Source of the DNA: Parvibaculaceae bacterium PLY_AMNH_Bact1
Lineage (GTDB): Bacteria; Pseudomonadota; Alphaproteobacteria; Parvibaculales; Parvibaculaceae
DNA: 64,000 nt
Reading direction: 5' to 3'
NCBI GenBank assembly: GCA_032881465.1
Contig: CP126168.1
Location: forward strand, 2,046,001 to 2,110,000
The notes beneath the pieces were generated by a model that had not been told where the DNA came from, made no database searches, and worked only from the letters and a program-made list of their open reading frames with translations. Position numbers and translations under genes: made by a program. This document shows positions 22,450 through 23,828 of the stretch, one piece after another (position 1 is the stretch's first letter; every line of letters begins with the position of its first letter).

Positions 22450-22477
22450 TTGATAGGCTTTTTTGCAACGCTATATG
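22450..22477 (+). promoter_or_regulatory. Candidate sigma-70-type promoter of folE
   Basis: TTGATA at 22450-22455 is separated by 16 bases from TATATG at 22472-22477. A start near 22484 would give a leader of about 160 bases that contains both predicted hairpins before the folE ATG. Confidence 0.4.
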
Positions 22478-22540
22478 CATGCTTTAGAAGGTGTCGCATC
22501 AAGAACAGCATGGCATAAGACCCGTGCTTGATGGGCAAAT

Positions 22541-22623
22541 GGACTGGATCCGAAGTTAGACCTTCGCCCAGTCCGTGACTTGACCCGACCGTTCATCAGC
22601 GTGCGCATGCACGTGCGGTTGGG
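22541..22623 (+). ncRNA. Structured 5' leader of folE (possible folE RNA motif)
   Basis: Two long stems stand next to each other. The first pairs GGACTGG (22541-22547) with CCAGTCC (22568-22574) and, inside, CGAAG (22551-22555) with CTTCG (22562-22566). The second pairs CCCGACCG (22584-22591) with CGGTTGGG (22616-22623) with one G-U pair and, inside, CGTGC (22600-22604) with GCACG (22609-22613) around a GCAT loop. The structure ends 23 bases before the folE ATG. A folE RNA motif has been described upstream of folE in alphaproteobacteria; I could not compare its consensus here. Confidence 0.55.
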
Positions 22624-22646
22624 AAACCCCAAAAGAGATTGGTCAA

Positions 22647-23276
22647 ATGGACATGAATTCTATAGTCGACGACGTGCTTGAGAATATCGAAAAAAGCGAC
22701 AACCCAAACCGCCCCAGCCGCACAGAAGCTGAAGCAGCGGTACGGACCCTCATTTCATGGGCGGGCGACGATCCGGCCCGCGAAGGTCTGATTGAGACTC
22801 CGAAGCGGGTGGTCAAAGCCTATGAGGAGTTTTTCGCCGGTTATGACGAGGACCCAGATCTCGTTCTCGGCAAGACATTCGAGGAAGTCGAAGGCTATGA
22901 CGATATGGTCATGCTGCGCGACATCGATCTGGAAAGCCATTGTGAGCACCACATGGTTGCAATCCTCGGCAAGGCCCACATCGCCTACGTGCCAACATCC
23001 AAGGTAGTTGGGATCTCCAAACTGGCCCGCGTGATTGAAATTTACGCAAAACGACTCCAGACCCAGGAGACAATGACCGCACAGGTTGCAGACTCGATCA
23101 ATCGGGTGCTTGCACCAAAAGGCGTTGCTATTCTGATCGAAGCAAAGCATCAATGCATGACAACCCGCGGCATCAAGAAGCCTGATGTTGCAACGATTAC
23201 AACGCAGTTTACCGGCGTCTTCAAAGAAGACCCGAATATGGAACGGCGTTTCCTGTCGATGATCCGGGGCTACTAA
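22647..23276 (+). CDS. folE: GTP cyclohydrolase I
   Basis: The 209-residue enzyme shows the zinc and active-site region [20 protein letters not shown], the [18 protein letters not shown] segment and the late [12 protein letters not shown] motif of FolE. It converts GTP to dihydroneopterin triphosphate, the first step towards folate and queuosine-type pterins. The N-terminal 30 residues are acidic and variable. Expression may be controlled by the structured leader in front. hisI follows on the same strand. Confidence 0.97.
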
Positions 23277-23381: not shown

Positions 23382-23828
23382 GTGAGTGATCTCCCAACAT
23401 TTTCCAAAGCCCCAACCTTCTCTAAAAACTTGTCTAAAGACGAACTCGAGAACGGCACTCTGTTTGCGCCCAAATTTGACGCGAATGGGCTGATCCCGGC
23501 CGTCACCACCGATGCTAAATCCGGTGAACTGCTTATGCATGCCTGGATGAATGAAGAGGCGCTCGCCCGCACAATTGAAAGCGGCGAAGCCTGGTATTGG
23601 AGCCGCAGCCGGGGCGAGCTGTGGCACAAGGGCGCCACCAGCGGACAAATCCAAACTGTTGTTGAGATACGGACCGACTGCGATCAGGACACGGTTTGGC
23701 TCAAAGTCGAGCCTCAGGGCGACGGTGGCTGCTGTCACGTGGGCTACCGGTCATGCTTCTATCGCGTGAGTCCAGCAGGCCAATCAGATGGCCCTGCAAC
23801 ACTAATTACCGATCAGGAAAAACTCTGA
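23382..23828 (+). CDS. hisI: Phosphoribosyl-AMP cyclohydrolase
   Basis: The 148-residue product has the HisI core: [37 protein letters not shown], the metal-site [12 protein letters not shown] and the zinc cysteines in [14 protein letters not shown]. It opens the purine ring of PR-AMP in histidine synthesis. The start is GTG. The first 30 residues are a variable extension. No PR-ATP pyrophosphohydrolase (HisE) domain is fused, as is usual in alphaproteobacteria. Confidence 0.95.

Follow-up and report, generated by a model that had tools for sequence, protein, structure and literature searches.

In Parvibaculaceae bacterium PLY_AMNH_Bact1, two stem-loops stand in tandem directly upstream of folE, the gene for GTP cyclohydrolase I, the enzyme that opens pterin synthesis. 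An initial annotation, made from a 64,000-nucleotide stretch of contig CP126168.1 (hereafter the window), placed the stem-loops at 22541-22646 and judged their position and taxon to fit the alphaproteobacterial folE RNA motif. The gene itself (22647-23276) and hisI (23382-23828), which is next after it, were identified by NCBIfam; both lie on the forward strand, as do all features of the window described below.

A conserved structured leader precedes folE

Comparison with the folE leaders of relatives shows that the two hairpins are the 3' half of a conserved leader extending over approximately 22484-22646. The whole leader RNA is conserved in 35 leaders, and its 5' end would lie at 22484 judging from the -10-like block. 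The conserved element starts about 60 bases 5' of the span first annotated, and 22491-22539 holds much of the invariant sequence. The blocks follow in the order TTGATA/TATATG (22450-22477), GUGUCGCAUCA (22491-22501), GCAUGGCAUAAGACCCGUGCUUGAUGGGCAAA (22508-22539), hairpin A, GUGACUUGA (22575-22583), hairpin B, GGAAACCCC, AAAAGAGAUUGGUC and the start codon. Blocks between the hairpins are nearly unchanging, and hairpins A and B themselves vary in both letters and length.

Both promoter-like blocks pointed out by the initial annotation are present and conserved across the 35 compared leaders. The -35-like TTGATA (22450-22455) and the -10-like TATATG (22472-22477) are 16 bases apart, with CTTGATA conserved in most leaders and YATATGC in 35/35 by construction of the anchor, and together they may serve as a promoter. 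The spacer at 22456-22471 is also conserved, with TTT and GCAA above 0.9 in the 35 leaders. This exceeds the needs of a plain promoter and may point to a regulator site within the spacer.

The segment 22541-22646 folds at -44.3 kcal/mol against a shuffle mean of -29.2 (sd 3.37; z -4.48), and none of 200 dinucleotide shuffles folds as well. Hairpin A (22541-22574) has the stem first described, with 7+5 pairs formed by GGACTGG/CCAGTCC (22541-22547 with 22568-22574) and CGAAG/CTTCG, and hairpin B (22584-22623) has 9+6 pairs rather than the 8+5 originally given. The compensating changes that the initial annotation proposed to look for occur in relatives' folE leaders, where two-sided changes are seen at 5/5 basal pairs of hairpin A and 2/5 of hairpin B. 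Folded singly, the window hairpins reach z -4.7 (A) and -3.2 (B); such folding is strong in many leaders and ordinary in some, for example hairpin B of L016, L026 and L030. By inspection hairpin A is absent in L064, L066 and L067, where the block after GGG runs straight into the CUUGA-like block, and hairpin A is therefore not part of a minimal core.

Statistics were taken from an alignment of 36 sources (34 distinct rows) that was fitted to the structure model and so leans towards it. In this alignment 94.7% of cells are paired compared with 89.4% in shuffles, and two-sided changes occur at nine pairs compared with 4.6. For four of five measures the observed value is never attained in 500 shuffles, and for pair types it is attained in 2/500; slid controls are only 26-59% paired. 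The nine pairs comprise five in hairpin A, two in hairpin B and one in each of two parts of the candidate helix P1 described below. Two further alignments were used: A1, with 28 leaders and without the last 19 bases, and A2, with 32 of the 35 leaders, from which L012, L017 and L068 were left out as near-identical. L021 is a non-member, and L025 is the same locus as L070.

The unpaired letters at the junction are close to invariant. CAAA (22536-22539) is found in 30 of the 34 distinct leaders, GUGACUUGA (22575-22583) takes the form UGACUUGA in 30/34 and UGAAUUGA in L065, and GGAAA (22622-22626) is kept in 29/34. The leader thus combines general features of a riboswitch, namely a covarying conserved structure (hairpins A and B), near-invariant unpaired junction letters and a steady association with folE (35/35 leaders). 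No intrinsic terminator was found when a T-run was sought after hairpins A and B in the window sequence. A leader-peptide attenuator was rejected since the reading frame from ATGGG is not conserved in the 35 leaders.

Distribution of the leader in and beyond Parvibaculaceae

Of 40 Parvibaculaceae genomes, 35 carry the leader upstream of folE. The remaining five all have a completeness below 90%, and in one of them (G004) the folE fragment starts at a contig edge; the 35 include all 27 genomes with a completeness of at least 90% and a contamination of no more than 5%. When the 40 genomes were searched with a covariance model made from 32 of these leaders, the same 35 each gave a single strong match (E 1.6e-13 or better). 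As these match by construction, the search mainly shows that each genome carries a single strong copy. Ten weaker matches (E 0.05 to 1) also occur within the family. An independent DNA pattern scan of genome contigs returned 39 stretches, with 27 assigned to Parvibaculaceae (Parvibaculum, Tepidicaulis, Rhodobiaceae and strain Mf 1.05b.01). Of these 27, 26 show folE and one locus (L088) ends before it; the other 12 stretches have no folE on their loci. In 22 of the 26 loci showing folE, hisI follows, three end inside folE, and the last (L108) lacks hisI in the next 500 bases or so.

Searches reaching beyond Parvibaculaceae, covering 385 genomes of the class, the contig pattern scan and 34 further loci, yielded no convincing copy. 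In the class genomes the model gives nine matches at E up to 0.1. Five of these are strongly scoring family members; the remaining four score weakly (E 0.004-0.096), and their loci as examined show no folE. The 34 further loci, comprising folE leaders outside the family and the loci L082 and L083, score at most 9.0 bits. L082 and L083 (from G006 and G024) are second folE copies within the family and have no such leader in the stretch examined. NCBI taxonomy places Parvibaculum in Hyphomicrobiales, Parvibaculaceae. In GTDB the Parvibaculum group forms an order of its own, in agreement with the same 40 genomes representing both family and order.

The leader is distinct from the THF-II riboswitch

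The folE motif (RF02977) is now the THF-II riboswitch. In the account given by the part of PMC6800512 used here, its 86 representatives come from Rhizobiales or metagenomes and invariably occur at folE, which hisI follows. The same part reports binding of THF, DHF, BH4 and dihydroneopterin, and leaves open which of these matters in the cell. The initial description of the ligand as unsettled is accordingly out of date as to binding, and still holds as to the compound relevant in the cell. THF-II is also the precedent for control of folE by an RNA of this kind (PMC6800512 and PMC9881143, both in the parts used).

A structured, covarying RNA leader before folE in an alphaproteobacterium is supported, and its identity with the folE motif did not survive comparison with the published covariance model, which matches neither the window nor the leaders of relatives. 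At the Rfam gathering cut-off of 41 bits there is no RF02977 match in the window, and a search around the leader that allowed E values up to 10 also gives none. The same permissive search of the bacterium's own genome, in which 150 of 1088 candidates were scored, gave none, and in relatives eight weak matches all fall outside the leaders. Two broader searches, each weak if taken alone, agree: five of the 40 family genomes contain matches at E up to 1, all of them short of the cut-off and away from folE contigs, and among 385 class genomes, with 16 candidates scored per genome, only G390 matches, at 27.6 bits and below the cut-off. Nor does any Rfam family reach gathering in the window or in leaders L001-L020, the THF-I riboswitch included. 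One of three weak matches around the leader, RAGATH-32 at 22603-22645 (14.1 bits, cut-off 41.8, E 0.85), was taken as chance.

The positive control works. All four THF-II leaders tested score 57.9-62.5 bits with RF02977 and stand before folE with hisI next; their four source genomes belong to a single genus of another order, presumably rhizobial to judge from the part of PMC6800512 used. These leaders are the four RF02977 matches among five of 219 genomes that carry a THF-II core pattern, the fifth (L172) having no match and not lying before folE with hisI. Further controls were sought in 20 sources with folE of other families, where only one tRNA matched, and at Shinella and Sinorhizobium folE loci, where none was found. 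A THF-II pattern in viral contigs gave eight stretches, with no folE by tblastn and no RF02977 match. The THF-II core written as GTTCAACTCG..CTACGGGAG, with the ligand-contacting C22 and U44, occurs in 0 of 385 class genomes, G000, G002, G003, G009 and G010 among them. Conversely, the model of the Parvibaculaceae leader reaches at best 0.9 bits over THF-II leaders and 5.8 bits anywhere on the four loci.

THF-II identity was therefore rejected, given the missing match alongside a working control and the differing conserved letters. The THF-II core CCGUUCAACUCG..CUACGGGAG is absent from the Parvibaculaceae leader, which instead has a P0 hairpin, a two-hairpin junction in most members and other invariant letters, and which at about 165 nt is far larger than the 39-position THF-II model. 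As each model misses the leaders of the other, two unrelated RNAs hold the same place before folE-hisI; they may work alike, and they are not one family.

Upstream hairpins and a candidate closing helix

Three further pairings involve the sequence on either side of hairpins A and B. The P0 hairpin (22491-22516), joining GUGUCG with UGGCAU, has 96.1% of cells paired over 34 distinct leaders, shows one-sided changes only and is not formed in the predicted ensemble of the window. The ALT hairpin (22492-22537; UGUC, CAUCA and GCAUGG with CC-GUGC, UUGAUG and GGCA) competes with both P0 and P1, and has 94.1% of cells paired with no two-sided change. P1 would join a 5' strand at 22519-22535 (GACC, CUU, GGG) to a 3' strand at 22628-22644 (CCC, GAG, GGUC), the latter with GAG and GGU as the likely ribosome-binding letters. 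Of the 34 distinct leaders, 31 can form all ten P1 pairs, two can form nine and one can form eight.

Support for P1 is thin. For 17 of the 20 distinct strand pairs, no more than 36 of 400 shuffles do as well, and the pairs of L006, L019 and L070 are ordinary (43, 85 and 126 of 400). Exchange of strands between species reveals no general preference for own over foreign partner, for P1 or for ALT. The P1 letters are nearly invariant, with one clear two-sided change in L066/L067, where GGG to AGG is matched by CCC to CCU in the alignment register and an alternative register leaves a mismatch; the other counted change (L029) depends on an imperfect placing.

P1 and ALT share one strand, and the energy difference between them ranges from -2.4 to +6.8 kcal/mol over 34 leaders. 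In the window P1 lies 4.8 kcal/mol above ALT, which is predicted to dominate with a probability of 0.98-0.99, the predicted probability of P1 being 0.00. P1 is the better in energy in five of 34 leaders (L005, L020, L029, L064 and L070), and predicted ensembles favour ALT in most leaders and P1 in few, for example L005 and L029. With ALT barred, the best fold has no P1 pair at all in 8/34. RNAalifold on A1 preferred ALT, with P1 not on offer in an alignment that lacks the last 19 bases. Averaged over the 34 leaders, barring P1 gives GAG a predicted openness of 0.65 and barring ALT one of 0.32; for GGUC the corresponding values are 0.42 and 0.13. The opening of GAG exceeds 0.3 in only 18/34. 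On this slender evidence P1 may close the junction with hairpins A and B and cover the ribosome-binding letters. Given the few changes in P1, the lack of preference for own strands, the predicted dominance of ALT and the eight leaders without P1, we therefore treat it as a candidate helix and not as a finding.

Proposed mechanism and alternatives

Our results establish the Parvibaculaceae folE leader as a conserved RNA with covarying hairpins, present in one strong copy per genome and distinct from THF-II. It is a real leader that Rfam does not list, it is probably a cis-acting switch, and it is possibly a third folate class. The reading that we favour, at close to an even chance, is a switch on folE translation, most probably a riboswitch through which plentiful reduced pterin or folate would bring FolE down. 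Somewhat more tentatively, it could define a third class of riboswitch for reduced pterins or folates with a structure independent of the other two, in which case the same control of folE would have arisen twice with different RNAs.

In the mechanism we propose, the 5' strand of P1 would pair upstream as ALT when ligand is scarce, precluding P1 and leaving the ribosome-binding site more open. A ligand seated among the near-invariant CAAA, GUGACUUGA and GGAAA would then stabilise P1, pairing GACC..CUU..GGG with CCC..GAG..GGUC, and the P1 fold would close the junction, cover the ribosome-binding letters and shut translation. A ligand that favours the repressing helix is the usual plan of a translational riboswitch. 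Solely from the gene association, we infer that the ligand would be a product of the pathway opened by FolE, such as THF, DHF or dihydroneopterin. The general plan, in which ligand binding hides the ribosome-binding site, is shared with SAM-II and preQ1-II (cited in the part of PMC9881143 used), neither of which has an Rfam match at the leader. The THF-I riboswitch for tetrahydrofolate in Gram-positive bacteria likewise places folate under RNA control; it is described with a three-way junction in the same part of PMC9881143, and differs in finding no match here.

Among the alternatives, the one that survives best, though we consider it unlikely, is a conserved structured leader bound by a protein or another RNA, for instance a translational repressor, rather than by a small molecule. 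Conservation and covariation do not separate a ligand from a protein, and the dispensability of hairpin A in some members would suit such a binder. We know of no candidate protein for the folE leader, which counts against this explanation, as does the single gene target at a pathway entry with known riboswitches (PMC6800512, in the part used). A riboswitch for some ligand other than a pterin or folate is less probable again: the leader is tied to folE by position only and hisI is its frequent second neighbour, yet FolE opens pterin synthesis and the known folE switches bind reduced pterins (again PMC6800512 in part). An RNA thermometer, or a leader governing mRNA stability or the basal level of translation, would account for a metastable helix over the ribosome-binding letters, but near-invariant junction letters are not expected of it and the leader matches no Rfam family, so that we regard it as improbable.

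A divergent member of THF-II is highly improbable. The two RNAs do have features in common: both lie immediately 5' of folE, which hisI follows; in the model both place ribosome-binding letters in the right arm of the helix that closes the structure; and an OFF switch is proposed for both. Hairpin B in the genus of the window starts CCGACCGUUCAUCAGCG (22585-22600 in the window), and its CCGUUCA resembles the letters that follow the first helix in THF-II. Against this stand the failure of either model to recognise the other RNA, with RF02977 proven on its own leaders, and the loss of CCGUUCA in L005 and L006 of the same genus, which makes the likeness probably one of chance. Conservation of a promoter or operator at the DNA level only would explain the strongly conserved promoter block and is scarcely credible given the two-sided changes in hairpins A and B.

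If the riboswitch reading is true, the leader would add a class of riboswitch where folate synthesis begins, and with THF-II it would make a natural pair for studying how related bacteria come to place one gene under the control of different RNA folds. The reading lends itself to direct testing: the transcript measures some 165 nt, Parvibaculum is among the hosts in culture, and the candidate ligands are commercially available. It would also provide an annotation for the folE leader throughout a family where Rfam has nothing at that place. No description of it was found in the literature searched, a search that was not exhaustive, and term searches of the main text of the motif surveys PMC8632094 and PMC2864571, as far as these sources were available, found neither folE nor Parvibaculum.

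Related 5' blocks and the folE start codon

Two folE leaders of an outside family (f18), at 2183-2244 of L021 and 293-341 of L137, both on the reverse strand, have by eye the promoter-like block and TGGCATAAG in common with the Parvibaculaceae leader, and not the rest. They score 5.8 and 5.5 bits, respectively, with the leader model, and the shared block may be an older 5' part of the leader. At the 3' end, the annotated first ATG of folE (22647) is absent in four of the 35 relatives (L020, L029, L066 and L067) and an ATG six bases downstream (22653) is present in all 35, which suggests that translation of folE may start at 22653.
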